This document shows positions 16,909-41,045 of a DNA stretch of 42,571 nt, one piece after another; within the stretch, counting starts at the first letter, position 1, and each line of letters begins with the position of its first letter. Under the pieces are notes generated by a model. It ran no database searches, was not told the DNA's origin, and was given only the letters and a program-made list of their open reading frames with translations. Source of the DNA: Bacteroidota bacterium (GTDB lineage Bacteria > Bacteroidota > Bacteroidia > 2-12-FULL-35-15); contig CANIFU010000021.1 of NCBI GenBank assembly GCA_947466965.1, positions 1-42,571 on the forward strand, written 5' to 3'. A program made the translations under genes and the position numbers.

Positions 16909-18039
16909 TCACTCTTCCACCCAACCTATAATATCACTCAATGAAGTAACATCCAATGTTGTCCATTTTTTTGTAATGGTATTCCATACTACAACTCCTT
17001 GAGGGTATCGGTCGGGGCCCATTACAATATCATTTTGAAAAGCGGCAAAGCCTTCTGTTGTTTTTGCATTGTCCAAACGGCACCATTTTTTTCCAGCTTC
17101 TAGGGTTTCGTATTTTATGGATCTACCGTATTTCGGATTCTCATCTGCTTCTACAAAAAAATCATTTCCGATGGATTCAAATAAGAGTTTTGTTGCTATC
17201 TTTTTTTTCATATCAATTTCCAACCTGCCTTTACCGCATGAATATATTACATTCCCGTATGAAGAGAACTCAAACGCAGCATTTTGAGCAGTTGCGGGAA
17301 TTTCAGTAATCTCTGCCATCTTTTCAATTGTTTTATTTAAGTGAACCTTATAGATGGTTGCTGTTTGCTGATTCTTGGAAAAATTCGCATATAAAAAAGA
17401 GGTGTTGTCTAACCAGAAAATTTGGAATGTTCGTTTTACATCATCACCTAAAAGCGGTTGTGCTTCTCCGTATCCTGCATCTTTCACTAAGATTTCCTGC
17501 TTTCCATTTACATAATAAGCAGATATACCGAAGGGTTTTGTTGTTTCGTCCACCTCCACATCTGGTCTTGGCAAAGGATTATAATTTGCATTTTCTACTT
17601 TTCCGAACTTTTCTGTTTTTAGATTCAATACGGAATAGTATTTCCCTTTAAAAATATCATTGGTATGAAATATAATACTGTCGCCACTAAATGCAACAAA
17701 ATCACCACGCTCTTCCACTAATAATTTTTTAGTTTTAATATCAATCACATTTCCGATTCCGGTAACGACATAACGGTTGCGATAAATTCTGTTTTTTCCT
17801 AAATCGAATCGAACATAATTACCTTTTATTCCTGCTTTTTGTGTTGGAAGTGATACGATGGTTTCTCTGGTAACCATCGCTCCGTCAACAAAAACATAAT
17901 TCACAAGGTGTTGCAAATGATTCACAGCGGCATTGTCGTCATACTCAGCGATAAGAAGCGACAAACGGTTTTGGGGCAACTGAAATGCCACAAAAAGAAA
18001 AAGAATAAAAATGAGAAAGGAATAACTAACAAGTCTCAT
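16909..18039 (-). CDS. Secreted protein of unknown function, co-transcribed with pepA
   Basis: I do not recognise a named family. The 376-residue protein begins with a signal peptide or membrane anchor (SYSFLIFILFLFVAFQLP). The rest is beta-rich with repeating short units such as VVTGIGNVIDIKTKKLLVEERGD, IFWLDNTSFLYANFS and WCRLDNAKTTEGFAAFQ, suggesting a degenerate propeller. No catalytic motif stands out. It starts 12 bases after the pepA stop on the same strand and is probably in its operon. A periplasmic location is likely. Confidence 0.75.
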   Translation of the reverse strand: MRLVSYSFLIFILFLFVAFQLPQNRLSLLIAEYDDNAAVNHLQHLVNYVFVDGAMVTRETIVSLPTQKAGIKGNYVRFDLGKNRIYRNRYVVTGIGNVIDIKTKKLLVEERGDFVAFSGDSIIFHTNDIFKGKYYSVLNLKTEKFGKVENANYNPLPRPDVEVDETTKPFGISAYYVNGKQEILVKDAGYGEAQPLLGDDVKRTFQIFWLDNTSFLYANFSKNQQTATIYKVHLNKTIEKMAEITEIPATAQNAAFEFSSYGNVIYSCGKGRLEIDMKKKIATKLLFESIGNDFFVEADENPKYGRSIKYETLEAGKKWCRLDNAKTTEGFAAFQNDIVMGPDRYPQGVVVWNTITKKWTTLDVTSLSDIIGWVEE

Positions 18040-24257: not shown

Positions 24258-25916
24258 ATGAAAAAAGCTATACTCACAAAAATACTTTTGCTATTTTTTG
24301 TTACTCAGAGTTGTTATACTTCTGCACAAGCAACGTATACACACATTTACAATATCTTTCAGGCAAACTGCACTACGTGTCATGATGCAACAAGTCCTGC
24401 GGGAGGATTAAATCTTTCTGCAACATCTGCAGCAGTTTATACAAGTATCGTAAATGCCAATCCCACCAATCCGGCAGCATTGGCAAAAGGAGATAAACGA
24501 ATTAAACCCGGTGATCCGCATAGAAGTTATTTGTTACGTAAATGTCAGAACGGCTTAGATCCGGATAACGGGCTTGTTGCAGGAGAAGGGAATGCAATGC
24601 CAACATCACCTGCTGCACCATTGTCAAATAAAGAAGTTGAATTGATTCGTCAATGGATCTATGCTGGTGCTCCACAAACAGGAAATGTAGTAGACACTGC
24701 CGTAATTAACAAATACTATAACGGTTATGGAATTGATAACTCGGCAGCTTCTCATCCTCTGCCAACAGATATCGGATCTTTTCAGGTTCATATTGGAAAA
24801 ATATTCATAGATACACTTTCAGAAATAGAATATTTTCTGAAACACAATTTGAATTTACCCGATACTGTAGAAGTAAACCGCGTTGAATTATTTTTGGCAA
24901 ATCAATCCCATCATTTTATTATTTATAAATTTTTACCCGGTGCTGCTGCAAGTTTTTCTGATGCAATCCGAATACAAAACCCAACAACAGGAGTAGGATC
25001 TTCAGACGGTTTCAATACGATGGTGAGCGCCTTTCAGGCATCTCGTAATGATGTATTGCCTCCCACTACAGCCTATCAATGGGAAACAACAACAGCCCTT
25101 GATTTAAATCATCACTTGTTTAACACGAGTGCGGATTCGGTTTTAGCAGCCGACCTTTACTTTAATGTGTACACACAACCCAAAGGGACTGCCGCTTCAA
25201 TTATGTATAGTGACATCATCACCAACACGAGTATTTTTATTCCTAACACTAGCACTAATGTTACTTTTACAAAAGCAGATTTTAATGCAAGTGCAACGCG
25301 GATGTGGAATATTTGGCAACTTTCCTCTCATACACATAAGTACGGAGTAGACTTTGATATCTTTATGAGAAACCCTGGTGGCAGCACAGGAACGCAGATC
25401 TATGAAGGGTTCTACAACGCTGACTATACTTTCAACCAAGGCTATTATGATTGGGAGCATCCAGCAGTAGAGTTATTCTTTCCTTTCTTATCCGTTAATC
25501 CAAGAGATGGATTGATTCAGAAAGCCGTTTTCAATAATACGGGTCCAACCAATATCTTTTTTGGTTTAACAACCAACGATGAAATGATGTTATACTTTAT
25601 CCAATATACCTTAGGCAATACAATTGTTGGAATAAATGAAAATGCAGCTATTGAAAACAAAATCAATTTGGATGTTTTTCCAAATCCTTTCAGCAACAAC
25701 ACACAGATAAGTTATGATTTGAAAGAAAATGCAACTGTAACAATCGGTGTATACGATGTTCTTGGAAACAAAATTGAAACGCTTATAAACGAAGCACAAG
25801 ATAGCGGAAATCATCTTATTGATTACAATGCAAAAAATCGTGCAAAAGGCATTTACTTAGTTGTGGTATCCATTAACGGACAAGCATTCACGAAACGAAT
25901 TGTGCTGACGAATTAA
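24258..25916 (+). CDS. Secreted cytochrome c / type II copper monooxygenase-like protein with T9SS tail
   Basis: The 552-residue protein has a signal peptide (about residues 1-24) and a haem c site C38TTCH42 in an N-terminal domain of about 120 residues. The central part (about 175-455) resembles peptidylglycine-hydroxylating (PHM/DBM) type II copper monooxygenases: H218 H219 in NQSHHFIIYKF, H285 H286 in LDLNHHLFN, H358-T-H360 in SSHTHKYG and M443/M444 in TNDEMMLYF. These match both copper sites (three His; two His plus Met). A type-A T9SS sorting domain closes it (DVFPNPFSNN, YDVLGNKIE, GIYLVVVSINGQAFTKRIV). It should be exported and perhaps surface-attached. The haem domain could pass electrons to copper; that and any substrate are inference. 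It ends at a terminator. Confidence 0.8.
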   Translation: MKKAILTKILLLFFVTQSCYTSAQATYTHIYNIFQANCTTCHDATSPAGGLNLSATSAAVYTSIVNANPTNPAALAKGDKRIKPGDPHRSYLLRKCQNGLDPDNGLVAGEGNAMPTSPAAPLSNKEVELIRQWIYAGAPQTGNVVDTAVINKYYNGYGIDNSAASHPLPTDIGSFQVHIGKIFIDTLSEIEYFLKHNLNLPDTVEVNRVELFLANQSHHFIIYKFLPGAAASFSDAIRIQNPTTGVGSSDGFNTMVSAFQASRNDVLPPTTAYQWETTTALDLNHHLFNTSADSVLAADLYFNVYTQPKGTAASIMYSDIITNTSIFIPNTSTNVTFTKADFNASATRMWNIWQLSSHTHKYGVDFDIFMRNPGGSTGTQIYEGFYNADYTFNQGYYDWEHPAVELFFPFLSVNPRDGLIQKAVFNNTGPTNIFFGLTTNDEMMLYFIQYTLGNTIVGINENAAIENKINLDVFPNPFSNNTQISYDLKENATVTIGVYDVLGNKIETLINEAQDSGNHLIDYNAKNRAKGIYLVVVSINGQAFTKRIVLTN

Positions 25917-34749: not shown

Positions 34750-37700
34750 ATGATTAAACATTATAATTTAATGAAGAATCGAATTTTAATCCTTATTGTT
34801 TTTGTTTTCTTCCTGTCAAGTTCATCAAATGCTACTCATATTGTTGGAGGATCATTGACGTATGAGCAATTAGGCGGTTCAACTTATCGTGTAACATTAA
34901 AATTATACCGCGACTGCAGCCCCGGGAATGCTGCATTTCCTAATCCTGTAACGATTGAAGTAAGAAGAAGTTGCGGAACAATATCCCTTGCCGATATTGA
35001 AATTCCTTTTCCAGGGGCAAGTTTGGTTCCACCAAATATTGATACCTGTGCTGTTAATCCGGGAATCTGTCTTGAAGAAGCGATATATACAAAAGTAGTT
35101 AGCGGTTTGCCTCCAACTACAGGTGGATATGATTTATTTTTTCAATCTTGCTGTCGTAACGCTACATTACTGAACATTGTATCTCCTTTAACAGCAGGAG
35201 AAACATGGTATGCTCATATTCCTGATAATGGTGTTGTCATTTCAAACAGCAGTCCGAAATGGGTAAACCCACCTCCTGTATTTGTTTGCCAAGGAAACAA
35301 CATGTATGTTGATCACAGTGCTACTGATGCGGATGGAGATTCACTCGTATATTCATTATACAGTCCTTTCAGCAATATAGCAGTTACTTGGCCAGGATGC
35401 GTTTTCACTACTCCAGCTATAACTTGGTCGAGTACATATGGCGCAAACAACCCATTGAATGCAGCAATTCCCGGATCATTAACCGTTAGTTCATCCGGTA
35501 TCCTCAATGGAGTACCACCAATTTTAGGTCAGTTTGTTGCCGGTGTAAAATGCGAAGAGTGGCGTAACGGCGTAAAAATTGGAGAAATAGTACGCGACTT
35601 TCAATTTAACGTAGTGAACTGCCCACCACTTGCAGTTGCAAGTTTCAACACCAGTGGAGCATGTATAGGAACTACAATCGCATTTAATAATACGACTACA
35701 CCTGCTGCAAACTCCTATTTATGGAACTTTGGTGATGGGTCGCCTACTTCTTCGTTAACAAGCCCTAGCCATACCTTTCCGACACTTGGAAACTATACTG
35801 CAACATTGATTATTAATAGCGGGACAGCTTGCGCTGACACATTATCACAAGCTGTAAATATGTCTATTGTGAATTCAGACTTTATCAGTGATGCTCCTGA
35901 ATGTCAGGGATTACCAGTTGTATTTACAGATAGCTCCTCTGTGAATACAATTAGTTCAATCACCAATTGGGATTGGAACTTTGGTGACGGCTTTACATCT
36001 ACATTACAAGATCCGACACATATATTTAATGCTGGAGGTACGTTCAACGTAAGTTTAATTACAACATCTGCTGCGGGTTGTAAGGATACTATCAATTATC
36101 CGGTGAACATACAAGGATTGCCAATTGCAAATGCAGGCAGTGATACAATCAGCTGTACAAACAATTCAACAATTACATTGGGTGGAACAATCCTAAATGC
36201 AGGGGGAGGTCAATGGATCGGAAGTTTAGGAAGTATTTTTACCCCAGGAAGCACAACACTCAACGCAACATATACACCATCGGCTGCTGCATTAGCAAGC
36301 GGATCCGACACACTATTACTACTAACAACCAGCAATGCACTTTGTCCGGCCGATACCGATCAAGTAATCATTAGTTTCTATGCAGGCCCAACTGTTGATG
36401 CAGGTGCCGATATCTTTGTGTGTAAAGATACAGCCAGCGTCCCTCTGTGTGCAACTGTAACAGTAGCTTCCGGTGGAACATGGGCAACATCAGGCACCGG
36501 AATATTCTTGTTCCCATTGAGCACATTGTGTAACGAATATCAGCCAAGTACTGCCGATACAATTGCAGGCTCTGTGATTCTTTATTTAATATCTACTGGC
36601 AATGGAAACTGTTTTGCATCGAGCGACTCTACCTTGTTAACATTTACGTCTACTCCAATTTCAGTAATCACTTCTGGCAGCAGCGTATGTTCTTCCTATC
36701 CGATCACATTAACAGCAACAACTTCAACAGGAAATGGTATATGGACAAGTTCTGGAACTGGAACATTTACACCAAACAACACCACATTAAACGGAAACTA
36801 TATTCCGAGTTCAGCGGATGACCTTGCCGGAAACGTTTCGTTGATCTTTACTTCAACAAATAACGGTGGGTGCAGATCAAATGCAGACACGGTCAACGTT
36901 ACCATTTTCCCTTCACCAATAGCTGCGTTCAACGGTATAAGTGCTTGTCCGCAAGATACAATAACGTTTACAAATGGATCAACAGGAACAATAGTAAACT
37001 GGAACTGGAATTTTGGAGATAGCGGAACAAGTTCATTAGAAAATCCGACTCATATTTATGGAACAGGCGGTCCATTTAATGTTTCATTAATTGTTACTTC
37101 AAACAACGGTTGCTTGGATACGATATCGCAGGTGGTGAATGTATTCGAACAACCTGTTGCTAATTTTAATGCCAACGGAATTTGTTTGAATGATGGAACC
37201 CTTTATACAGATATGTCAACGGTTGGCGGCGCAACTATTTCATCGTGGAACTGGAGTTATGGTGATGCAAGTGCAAACGGTACAATCCAAAATCCGAATC
37301 ACAATTTCCCTTCAGCCGGAACGTATACCACCTTATTAATTGTTCAATCATCGCAAGGTTGTATCGACTCTATCACACAGGCTGTAACCGTATTGCCTGG
37401 TCCGGGAGCAAACTTTACAGCCGATGATTTTACAGGAAATGTAAATCAAACAATTGGATTTTCAGATCAATCGACGACGGGTGCAATTAGTTGGTTTTGG
37501 GATTTTGGTGATTCATCCGCTGATTCTACATCAACATTACAAAACCCTTCACACATTTACGGAGCGGGTGGTTTTTATGACGTATGCTTAATTGTAACTG
37601 ACATCAATGGTTGTTCAGATACTATTTGCCGCACAGAAATCATTTCCATGCCACCTGAAGTTCCAAGCGGATTTACACCGAATGGCGATGGAGAGAATGA

Positions 37701-37920
37701 TGTTTTCTATGTGTATGGCGGTCCGTTTAAAAAACTAGATTTTAGAATTTACAACAATTGGGGTGAATTAATTTTCGAATCAAGTGAACAAGCAAAAGGT
37801 TGGGATGGCAAACGAAACAACATAGATCAGGCGATTGGGGTATACGTTTATACTGTAATCGGCACGACAGAAGATAACAAGGAATACAAGCTATCCGGTG
37901 ATGTTACTTTGTTACGATAA
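34750..37920 (+). CDS. T9SS type-B surface protein with PKD repeats (SprB-like organisation)
   Basis: The 1056-residue protein (or 1049 from ATG 34771, which places MKNRILILIVFVFFLSSSSN at the very start) has a signal peptide, then an N-terminal domain of about 260 residues (THIVGGSLTYE to VRDFQFNVVNC, with ATDADGDSLVYSL). Five PKD domains follow (WNFGDG or WDFGDS cores), split by three Ig-like modules. The C-terminal CHU_C domain has PSGFTPNGDGENDVF, FRIYNNWGELIF and GWDGKR. This is a type-B type IX substrate. PorP/SprF-like and PorE-like genes follow directly, the arrangement known for SprB and its partner SprF. Adhesion or motility is a reasonable guess. It shares its N-terminal domain with the protein at 20826-23555. 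Confidence 0.92.
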   Translation: MIKHYNLMKNRILILIVFVFFLSSSSNATHIVGGSLTYEQLGGSTYRVTLKLYRDCSPGNAAFPNPVTIEVRRSCGTISLADIEIPFPGASLVPPNIDTCAVNPGICLEEAIYTKVVSGLPPTTGGYDLFFQSCCRNATLLNIVSPLTAGETWYAHIPDNGVVISNSSPKWVNPPPVFVCQGNNMYVDHSATDADGDSLVYSLYSPFSNIAVTWPGCVFTTPAITWSSTYGANNPLNAAIPGSLTVSSSGILNGVPPILGQFVAGVKCEEWRNGVKIGEIVRDFQFNVVNCPPLAVASFNTSGACIGTTIAFNNTTTPAANSYLWNFGDGSPTSSLTSPSHTFPTLGNYTATLIINSGTACADTLSQAVNMSIVNSDFISDAPECQGLPVVFTDSSSVNTISSITNWDWNFGDGFTSTLQDPTHIFNAGGTFNVSLITTSAAGCKDTINYPVNIQGLPIANAGSDTISCTNNSTITLGGTILNAGGGQWIGSLGSIFTPGSTTLNATYTPSAAALASGSDTLLLLTTSNALCPADTDQVIISFYAGPTVDAGADIFVCKDTASVPLCATVTVASGGTWATSGTGIFLFPLSTLCNEYQPSTADTIAGSVILYLISTGNGNCFASSDSTLLTFTSTPISVITSGSSVCSSYPITLTATTSTGNGIWTSSGTGTFTPNNTTLNGNYIPSSADDLAGNVSLIFTSTNNGGCRSNADTVNVTIFPSPIAAFNGISACPQDTITFTNGSTGTIVNWNWNFGDSGTSSLENPTHIYGTGGPFNVSLIVTSNNGCLDTISQVVNVFEQPVANFNANGICLNDGTLYTDMSTVGGATISSWNWSYGDASANGTIQNPNHNFPSAGTYTTLLIVQSSQGCIDSITQAVTVLPGPGANFTADDFTGNVNQTIGFSDQSTTGAISWFWDFGDSSADSTSTLQNPSHIYGAGGFYDVCLIVTDINGCSDTICRTEIISMPPEVPSGFTPNGDGENDVFYVYGGPFKKLDFRIYNNWGELIFESSEQAKGWDGKRNNIDQAIGVYVYTVIGTTEDNKEYKLSGDVTLLR

Positions 37921-37953
37921 TAGTTTAAAAAATAGAGCAGATAAAATAGTTTC

Positions 37954-38979
37954 ATGAAACACTTTTTAAATCGATCATTCATCAATTCATCGAATAGTAT
38001 TTTACTCGGATTGATATTGTTATTATCCATACGAGTAGCTAAAGCGCAGGATTTCCACTTGTCGCAATACGATGCGCCACCGCTGTTTTTGAATCCTGCA
38101 ATGACAGGAATGTTTGACGGAAAATACCGCATACATGGGCACTACCGCACGCAATGGATGGCGGTAGCAACAAAGCCATATACAACAACAGGTATATCGT
38201 TTGACATGCCAATGAAAAAATTCGGAATTGGAGTTCAAATTTTTAATTATCGAGCGGGTGTAGGTAGTTACAATGCGTTGAGTGCTTTATTATCCTTGGG
38301 CTATGATGTTGTTTTAGACCAAGAAAAAAATCATCATTTAGCATTTGGAATACAAGGTGGTATTGTTCAAAAAAGCGTGAATGTTGATCAGCTTTCTTTT
38401 GGAAATCAATATACAACAAACAACGGTGGGGGATTTGATACAGGATTACCAAGTGGTGAATCGTTCAGCAATTCTAATTTTATGATCCATGACATAAATG
38501 CTGGAGCATTATATTATTATTCAAAAGATAATTCACGTATAAATCCTTTTATAGGTTTTTCTGCCTTTCATTTAACGCAACCTAAAGAAACTTTTTTTGC
38601 TTCTTCAAACAAATTACCATTGCGCTATTATCTTCATGGTGGTGTTAGAGTAAATATAAACGAAAAGATTCAGTTGTTGCCTAAGTTTATATACATGAAA
38701 CAGATCAACGATCAGGAATTTACGGCTACTTTATTAGTACATTATTTCTTAAAAAATTCTGATACGTATATCATTTTCGGACCAACTTACAGGAATAAAG
38801 ATGCTGCAATTGTTGAAGCTGGCTTTAAAAAAGGGAATTACACCGCACGCATCAGCTATGACATCAATACATCTAAATTACAAGAAGTATCAAACCACCG
38901 CGGAGGTTTTGAAATTTCATTGACCTATGTTGCTCGTAGAAGCAAACCAAACCCTTTAGCTAATTGTCCAAGATTATAG
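37954..38979 (+). CDS. PorP/SprF family outer-membrane protein
   Basis: The 341-residue protein has a signal peptide ending about AKAQ and then QDFHLSQYDAPPLFLNPAMTGMF, the family start. It continues as an outer-membrane barrel of about 14 strands with KFGIGVQIFNY, LSLGYDV and AFGIQGGIV. PorP/SprF proteins partner with type-B type IX substrates for export or attachment. It lies 33 bases after the CHU_C gene and 2 bases before the PorE-like gene, so the three form an operon. A later family name would be type IX secretion system membrane protein PorP/SprF. Confidence 0.93.
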   Translation: MKHFLNRSFINSSNSILLGLILLLSIRVAKAQDFHLSQYDAPPLFLNPAMTGMFDGKYRIHGHYRTQWMAVATKPYTTTGISFDMPMKKFGIGVQIFNYRAGVGSYNALSALLSLGYDVVLDQEKNHHLAFGIQGGIVQKSVNVDQLSFGNQYTTNNGGGFDTGLPSGESFSNSNFMIHDINAGALYYYSKDNSRINPFIGFSAFHLTQPKETFFASSNKLPLRYYLHGGVRVNINEKIQLLPKFIYMKQINDQEFTATLLVHYFLKNSDTYIIFGPTYRNKDAAIVEAGFKKGNYTARISYDINTSKLQEVSNHRGGFEISLTYVARRSKPNPLANCPRL

Positions 38980-38981
38980 TT

Positions 38982-41045
38982 ATGAGCAGCGTGAAAAAAA
39001 TTATTGCACTATTATTTCTGTTATCAAGTTTAGTTTCTTTTTCGCAAAGCAAAAGAGAATGGATTGAATACGCCGATATCGCATTTAAAAATGAAGATTA
39101 CAAAACAGCCGTTGTTTTTTACTTAAAAGTGATCGACAAAAGTACTTCTGTTGACCTAACACGTCCTTATGAAGTAAAACCTTATATTGCTCCGGCAAAA
39201 AAACAGAAAGACAGTATCAAGGCTGCTAAAGAAACCATTAAAGAAGCGGTACCTTTTGATTCGACCGAACAATATGTGATCCATCAAATAGCAGACTGTT
39301 ACCGCTTGAATAGTGATTATGCAAATGCGGAGATCTGGTTTAAAAAATCGGCAGATGCAAAACCTACAGCTTATCCTTATGAAAAATTTTGGTTAGGCAA
39401 CGCATTGATGAAAAATCAACATTATCCCGCTGCTGCATTTAATTTCGAATCGGTAATGACTGATGCAGAAGGAAAAGATTCTGTCATGTTCAAGATGGCC
39501 AAACTGCAACTTGCAGGCTGCTATTTAGCTACAGATACCAACAATACTAAAACAGGTGTTATTATCTCAAAACTCGATTCTGTTTTTAATGCCGGAACAG
39601 CAAGCTTTGCAGTAAACTATTATGGAGATGCAAATACCATTCAATTTACGACAGCGCGCGATGGCAATACAATCCTTGACCCTAAAAAAGAAGATCCAAA
39701 ATATGTTTGTGATATATACACATTAAAGAAAATAAACAATGGATGGAAAGAATTAAATAAAGTATCCGGACCTGCAAACACAGAAATGCATGAAGGGGCA
39801 GGATTCTTAACGTTAGATAGAAGTAATTATTTTTTCACCCGTTGGTCAGCAACAAATAAAAACGAGTGTGCTATTTATCTTTCAAAAAACATGAATGATA
39901 AATGGCTTGGTGCAGAAAAATTAAATGACGATGTGAACCTTGCCGGTTACAAAACAATGCATCCTTCATTGTCTCCCGATGGAAGTGTTTTATATTTTTC
40001 TTCAAATCGTCCGGGAGGGGTCGGGAAAATGGATCTTTGGTATGTGAATTTAGATGAAGAAAGCCGTCCGACTGGAAGACCAATCAACATGGGTCCATTG
40101 TTTAATACTTCTGAAGATGAAGTAACACCATTCTTTCACTTTTATACTTCAACACTTTATTTTAGTTCAAACGGACATCCTGGATTTGGGGGCTTAGATA
40201 TTTTTAAATCATCATACAACAGTGATTCATTATGGTCTTTACCAAAAAACTTAGGTTCACCTTTTAACTCTAGTAAAGATGATTCTTATTTTGTTTTAGA
40301 ACGGAGTCAAAGAAACGGATTCCTTACTTCGGACAGAGAGGACTGCAAAGATTGCATAGGTGGTGCTTGTTTAAAAGTATATGCTATTGAAAAAGACCCT
40401 TTGATCTATGACTTGAAAGGAACTGTTTACAATGCTGAAACAAATCAAGTTATTGCAAACTCGATGATTACCCTAAAAGATATTCGAGGTGATAGAGAAC
40501 CATTTTATTTATTTACAGATGCTGATGGAAATTATTTTACAGCATTGGATGAAGGAATGGAATTATATTTAAAAGCCCAAAAGAATAAATTTTTCGGTGA
40601 TGCCGGAAACGTTACCACTTTAGGATTAACAGAATCTGCCCACTTGATAAAAGATTTCTTCTTATCATCTATTCCTTCTGGAGACATTGTAATTCCAGGA
40701 ATAGAGTATGATTTAGATAAAGCGACTTTGCGTCCTGCATCTCAAAAGATCCTGGATGACTTAACCGACTTCTTGAATTTGAATAATAACTTAACAGTAG
40801 AAATCAATTCACATACCGATGAACGTGGAAGTGACAAATACAATCTAAAATTATCACAAGATAGAGCGAAGTCATGTGTAGACTATTTAATTTCGAAAGG
40901 AATTGCACCTCAACGATTATTTCCTCTGGGTTACGGCGAAAGCAAATTGCTTATCTTGAAAGCTACAACGGAGGAAGAACATCAGAAGAACAGAAGAACA
41001 GCCTTTCGCCCTATTAATGAAGCTGATATCAGAACGAATAAATAA
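38982..41045 (+). CDS. PorE-like OmpA-family protein (TPR, PD40, OmpA)
   Basis: The 687-residue protein has a signal peptide (about 1-21), TPR-like repeats (about 25-200), a PD40/WD40 propeller (about 220-460, for example MHPSLSPDGSVLYFSSNRPGG), a carboxypeptidase-regulatory-like domain (about 475-560) and a C-terminal OmpA domain. The last includes NSHTDERGSDKYNLKLSQDRA with the Asp and Arg that bind peptidoglycan. This order matches PorE, which ties the type IX machinery to the cell wall. The start is ATG 38982; a TTG at 38964 would overlap the previous gene. Ends at a terminator. Confidence 0.9.
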   Translation: MSSVKKIIALLFLLSSLVSFSQSKREWIEYADIAFKNEDYKTAVVFYLKVIDKSTSVDLTRPYEVKPYIAPAKKQKDSIKAAKETIKEAVPFDSTEQYVIHQIADCYRLNSDYANAEIWFKKSADAKPTAYPYEKFWLGNALMKNQHYPAAAFNFESVMTDAEGKDSVMFKMAKLQLAGCYLATDTNNTKTGVIISKLDSVFNAGTASFAVNYYGDANTIQFTTARDGNTILDPKKEDPKYVCDIYTLKKINNGWKELNKVSGPANTEMHEGAGFLTLDRSNYFFTRWSATNKNECAIYLSKNMNDKWLGAEKLNDDVNLAGYKTMHPSLSPDGSVLYFSSNRPGGVGKMDLWYVNLDEESRPTGRPINMGPLFNTSEDEVTPFFHFYTSTLYFSSNGHPGFGGLDIFKSSYNSDSLWSLPKNLGSPFNSSKDDSYFVLERSQRNGFLTSDREDCKDCIGGACLKVYAIEKDPLIYDLKGTVYNAETNQVIANSMITLKDIRGDREPFYLFTDADGNYFTALDEGMELYLKAQKNKFFGDAGNVTTLGLTESAHLIKDFFLSSIPSGDIVIPGIEYDLDKATLRPASQKILDDLTDFLNLNNNLTVEINSHTDERGSDKYNLKLSQDRAKSCVDYLISKGIAPQRLFPLGYGESKLLILKATTEEEHQKNRRTAFRPINEADIRTNK

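Follow-up and report, generated by a model that had tools for sequence, protein, structure and literature searches.

Peptidylglycine-hydroxylating monooxygenase (PHM) and dopamine-beta monooxygenase (DBH) of animals make amidated hormones and noradrenaline, respectively, using electrons from vitamin C, and there have been decades of debate over both their need for ascorbate and the 11 Å electron transfer between their two coppers. The CuM ligands of PHM are His242, His244, and Met314. In both enzymes, CuH transfers electrons while CuM binds O2, and each copper receives one electron from ascorbate (PMC6123673, PMC4846438). Our numbering of the CuH ligands of PHM follows PMC6123673, while that of the DBH ligands follows PMC4846438. 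The present analysis concerns a single gene in the window, by which we mean the whole 42,571-nucleotide stretch of Bacteroidota DNA under study. A sequence-only reading had proposed that this gene encodes a haem domain, a PHM-like dicopper core, and a type-A sorting tail of the type IX secretion system (T9SS), all within one secreted protein.

Domain layout, fold, and copper ligands

The gene lies at 24258..25916 on the forward strand, as do all of its features described below, and its reading frame was found intact there, encoding 552 residues; homologues that share its length and order of parts occur in 8/36 genomes of the genus and elsewhere in the phylum. Judging from the sequence, the protein begins with a signal peptide (MKKAILTKILLLFFVTQSCYTSAQA; 24258..24329), whose predicted boundary is near residue 24. 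This is followed by a class I c-type cytochrome domain at approximately residues 28-140 (24339..24677), which includes the haem-attachment motif C38-T-T-C41-H42 at residues 38-42 (24369..24383), a PHM/DBH-type double jelly roll at approximately residues 143-453 (24684..25616), and a type-A sorting domain at residues 473-549 (25674..25904). The residues of the haem motif (C38, C41, and H42) and all of the candidate copper ligands (H218, H219, H285, H286, H358, H360, M443, and M444) are located exactly where they had been reported, and the combination of a haem domain, a dicopper core, and a T9SS tail in one protein is borne out by profile, structure, and conservation alike. For the tail, PF18962 scored 41.3 bits (cut-off 27) and TIGR04183 scored 44.6 bits (cut-off 23), which confirms its assignment to type A, and the tail of the model matched the C-terminal domains of PorU (VIA Z 11.1) and mirolase (VIA Z 10.8). 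The genome also encodes the SprA translocon, so that both features expected of type-A cargo are found, i.e., a sorting domain above the curated score and a T9SS in the same genome.

When searched against Pfam as a single sequence, the protein scored below the cut-off for both PF03712, the PHM C-terminal domain (18.6 bits, cut-off 23), and PF13442, cytochrome c (18.1 bits, cut-off 27), and it had no match to PF01082. A single-sequence search of the PDB likewise gave no convincing match. Therefore, the PHM and cytochrome c assignments needed evidence from the family. Two relatives, L119 (25.7) and L026 (23.6), do pass the PF03712 cut-off, and because Pfam recognises this domain in several members, bacterial PHM-like domains are already known as such. 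A profile of 31 homologues compared with all PDB sequences matched human DBH at E 4.7e-4 and rat PHM at E 8e-4, with HTH placed over HTH, DEM placed over the DEM or EEM of DBH/PHM, and LDLNxHyvN aligned with the strand that bears PHM His172 and DBH His333. Among solved structures, the haem part of the same profile came closest to hydrazine synthase alpha, whose cytochrome domain (5c2v) was matched at E 4.3e-5.

Structural modelling and superposition upon PHM, which had been suggested as a check, agreed with the profile. The AlphaFold model of the mature protein (pLDDT 93.8, pTM 0.79) retrieved only PHM or DBH structures among its top 31 Foldseek matches, and by VIA it superposed upon PHM with Z 21.2 over 270 residues at 2.9 Å and upon DBH with Z 19.9. 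A model of the core, consisting of the haem domain and the jelly rolls (pLDDT 94.4, pTM 0.90), gave nearly identical values for PHM (5wja, Z 21.4, 269 residues at 2.9 Å) and DBH (4zel, Z 20.0), whereas the best fold outside of these two enzymes reached Z 8.8. Sequence and model together establish the parts, their conservation, and the fold, which includes the double jelly-roll core of the PHM/DBH copper type II monooxygenase superfamily. PNGase F and the double jelly-roll capsid proteins share this topology, but we rejected them as matches given their Z ≤ 8.8 versus 21; to our knowledge, no PHM-type copper ligands are to be expected in these proteins. Chance resemblance to PHM was similarly rejected based upon the conservation among 91 members and the Z 21 fold match. 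Since the core reaches a pTM of 0.90 even though the haem domain makes up more than a quarter of the chain, the model suggests a single fixed orientation of the haem and copper domains, rather than a loose tether.

Conservation of the copper ligands was examined first in 39 homologues and later in an alignment of 91 family members. In the latter, H218, H219, H286, H358, and H360 are invariant (91/91), as is M443 (90/90), and the ligands are kept in members down to ~27% identity. Two positions had been left ambiguous, H285 or H286 and M443 or M444. As H285 and M444 vary freely across the alignment, the copper ligands are H286 and M443, and the other residue of each pair can be dropped. Homologues without the ligand residues had been named as the observation that would count against the assignment, and the alignment contained none. 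The complete series, HH 218-219, H286, HTH 358-360, and M443, is in register with PHM/DBH, just as had been claimed for its order. His218-His219 (24909..24914) are the counterparts of PHM His107-His108, while His286 (25113..25115), in register with the LxxHY motif of both enzymes, is that of PHM His172 and DBH His333; together these supply the His, His, His set that the superfamily has at CuH. His358-Thr-His360 (25329..25337), in register with the HTH of both enzymes, corresponds to PHM His242/His244, and Met443 (25584..25586), in register through the DEM motif, corresponds to PHM Met314 and DBH Met487, which yields the His-x-His plus Met arrangement of CuM. Superposition and alignment upon PHM argue that these six ligands would form two copper sites.

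The haem domain is conserved nearly as well. CxxCH is kept in 89/90 family members and Met114, the probable axial ligand of the haem, in 82/91, i.e., it is replaced in 9/91 rows. Together, the CxxCH motif, the distal Met, and the signal for export correspond to a class I c-type cytochrome, and cytochrome c assembly proteins are encoded in the same genome. Two members lack the haem altogether. In L090 (9848-11968, +), the CxxCH stretch reads CTDALL and Met114 is replaced by Ile, while all six copper ligands are intact. L044 (1363-2316, +) is a lipoprotein composed of the PHM-like part alone, again with its copper ligands. Thus, whatever maintains the copper sites does not strictly depend upon the haem. 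L090 also offers a ready-made natural control for tests of haem function. In the complete genome CP096135.1 (L091:9900-11597), the haem and PHM parts are found in different frames, which is due either to a broken gene or to a sequencing error.

Distribution, export, and neighbourhood of haem-PHM fusions

The gene belongs to a widespread, uncharacterised family of Bacteroidota. Within the genus, 8/36 genomes have full-length homologues (45-92% identity), and such homologues are also present in several other families of the class. A query lacking the tail found matches in 24/395 genomes across the phylum, which represent 20/171 sampled genera. Cultured relatives include Spirosoma endophyticum DSM 26130, Fibrella forsythiae HMF5405, and Arcicella aurantiaca DSM 22214. 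The rarity implied by the sequence-only reading did not hold, as the fusion is common in the phylum and its T9SS tail is optional. Scanning 84,980 species genomes yielded 303 encoded relatives, from which 79 loci were kept; all of these are labelled Bacteroidota except for a Gemmatimonadota MAG (L120) and a record titled only 'uncultured bacterium' (L075). Of the kept loci, 13 carry tandem copies, which number at most four, and one genome (G038) has five copies. The longest tandem array found consists of four consecutive haem-PHM genes (L076:7458-15060). NCBIfam has no family covering the fusion, and our search of mainly open-access literature yielded no described bacterial cytochrome-PHM fusion.

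A PF03712 search of the 395 Bacteroidota genomes gave matches in 35, and we read 30 of the resulting loci. In 28 of their 29 complete ORFs, CxxCH precedes the HH, HxH, and EM motifs; the sole haem-less one (L149) is the same locus as L044. Accordingly, the fusion is the rule in the sampled Bacteroidota. Approximately half of the PF03712 proteins that we read constitute a second haem-PHM family, which also has a signal, a cytochrome c domain, and then a PHM core with the same ligands. It differs in that its PHM part is only 13% identical to that of the window family (HHalign) and scores above the PF03712 cut-off, its haem is of the CxxCHxxGExxPF...MPP subtype, and PHMH takes the place of SHTH. 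The genome of the window itself encodes one such member, a 451-residue lipoprotein (L158:8427-9779:-, on contig C37 of genome G000), and this gene and a cluster of genes for rhodanese, thioredoxin, and OsmC-like proteins are convergently oriented. The haem parts of the two families match one another by HHalign (E 3e-10), as do the PHM parts (E 5e-22), while cross-comparisons are not significant. Homology in both parts, as these alignments indicate, would be compatible with one old fusion.

Among relatives of the window protein, some begin with a similar signal peptide and the others with a lipoprotein signal. The family tree has two main clades; one, to which the window protein belongs, carries T9SS tails and the other consists mainly of lipoproteins. 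Within the lipoprotein clade, a supported group of three members (L039, L041, and L043) again has sorting-type tails, which points to more than one origin of surface display. Export varies while the core stays constant, so it appears that an outside location has been selected and reached by different routes. A search of plasmid records gave no match to a lipoprotein-type member.

The neighbours of the gene in the window encode PdxA, leucyl aminopeptidase, MqnC, a CHU_C protein, riboflavin synthase, MetF, and LepA, and the RibE-gene-MetF order is conserved only in relatives from the genus. To search for partners, neighbours with flanks of up to 10 kb were clustered across the 79 loci. No conserved partner, electron-donor, or substrate gene was linked to the family in these loci; the only recurring pattern was local housekeeping synteny, which agrees with the earlier observation that no partner gene is nearby. 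In five loci (L063:9266-9667, L087:8254-8691, L080, L084, and L110), the family gene lies close to one for a small HMA-domain lipoprotein with a TCPxGCA-like motif, possibly involved in copper handling; these lipoproteins are confined to a single clade and were not taken as partners. Two other regions of the window can be mentioned here. A 376-residue protein encoded between PdxA and leucyl aminopeptidase (16909-18039, -) has no Pfam match, and 34750-41045 (+) is a typical surface-protein unit of the T9SS, with genes for a PKD/CHU_C protein, PorP/SprF, and an OmpA/PD40 protein in that order.

Proposed function and competing explanations

We consider it likely that the window protein is exported and functions as a dicopper monooxygenase with the PHM/DBH fold, that it has its own haem electron relay, and that it acts upon an extracellular substrate. 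Its metal occupancy, electron direction, use of O2, and location are what we infer from the features described above. The protein would cross the inner membrane, with haem being attached in the periplasm and copper being loaded either there or outside, and the T9SS would carry it over the outer membrane and onto the cell surface. Electrons from an outside donor would then reach the haem one by one and be passed to CuH, while O2 would be activated at CuM. Two electrons delivered by the haem would thereby support hydroxylation of the extracellular substrate, replacing the two ascorbates used by animal PHM/DBH. In the simplest reading, the haem, a one-electron carrier with ligands of the His-Met type, probably takes over the role of ascorbate. 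An electron feed in cis gains support from the retention of the haem in nearly all members and from the existence of a second haem-PHM family, whereas it is weakened by the rare haem-less members (L044 and L090) that have every copper ligand.

As for the substrate, the positions of PHM Arg240, Asn316, and Tyr318, which we take to be the residues that bind the peptide carboxylate, are occupied here by Ser356, Leu445, and Phe447 and are not conserved in the family alignment. The PHM part of the window protein also has no Cys and those of its relatives have 0-2, i.e., the conserved disulphide set of PHM is absent. Lacking both the carboxylate-binding residues and the disulphides, the protein falls outside the narrow class of peptide-amidating PHMs, and the sequence makes a C-terminal peptide glycine an unlikely substrate and peptide amidation an unlikely reaction.

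The full CuH and CuM set, with its spacing, is kept as in the monooxygenases, and the protein has neither a peroxidase-type second haem nor a conserved redox neighbour. For these reasons, we think it rather unlikely that the dicopper core is instead a peroxygenase or reductase of H2O2, nitrite, or organic peroxides, in which the haem would move electrons in or out and no O2-dependent hydroxylation would occur. In its favour, PHM crystals bind nitrite, azide, and CO according to PDB titles. PHM itself has a reported peroxide-driven activity. The haem profile also resembles the cytochrome domain of hydrazine synthase alpha, a nitrogen-cycle enzyme, though this type of domain is widespread.

It is quite unlikely, in our estimation, that the haem has a structural, sensory, or docking role and that, as in the animal enzymes, an external small molecule reduces the copper, rather than the haem serving as catalytic donor. 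This explanation would account for the retention of the copper ligands in the natural haem-less proteins L044 and L090 and for the loss of Met114 in some members, and it has a parallel in the N-terminal DOMON domain of DBH, which superposes on a haem-b cytochrome domain and for which a regulatory role has been proposed (PMC4846438). However, the near-invariance of CxxCH in the family, together with its presence in both distant families, exceeds what a purely structural role demands. Lastly, a non-enzymatic copper carrier or sequestration protein that merely keeps the fold would fit the surface location, the paralogue arrays, and the HMA-domain lipoproteins near five related loci, but is highly improbable, because the exact division into CuH and CuM, the Met-containing second site, and the haem are more than a carrier needs and the HMA linkage is limited to one clade.

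Comparison with known systems

If the window protein is indeed an exported, haem-fed dicopper monooxygenase, it would represent an uncharacterised route of extracellular oxidation by common Bacteroidota. By extension, we tentatively raise the possibility that Bacteroidota have a large class of haem-wired, ascorbate-free surface dicopper monooxygenases that oxidise compounds or polymers outside the cell, in a manner comparable to that of lytic polysaccharide monooxygenases on chitin and cellulose, and that the tandem paralogues serve different substrates. A bacterial core with a fixed haem would also offer a soluble protein in which electron input could be followed spectroscopically, electron by electron.

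Among the described systems, hydrazine synthase alpha has a similar cytochrome domain at its C-terminus, but it is a different enzyme and has no copper jelly roll. DBH shares the core fold, the ligands, and the presence of an extra N-terminal domain. In DBH, this domain is a DOMON with a cytochrome-domain fold (PMC4846438), whereas the window protein, which is a bacterial surface protein and has no dimerisation domain, has in its place a genuine c-type cytochrome, which bears a haem motif and belongs to a different fold class. PHM, a domain of PAM, has the same double jelly roll and the same six ligands in the same order and register. With only ~15% identity to PHM, the window protein differs from it in having a fused haem, T9SS export, and no lyase partner in evidence.
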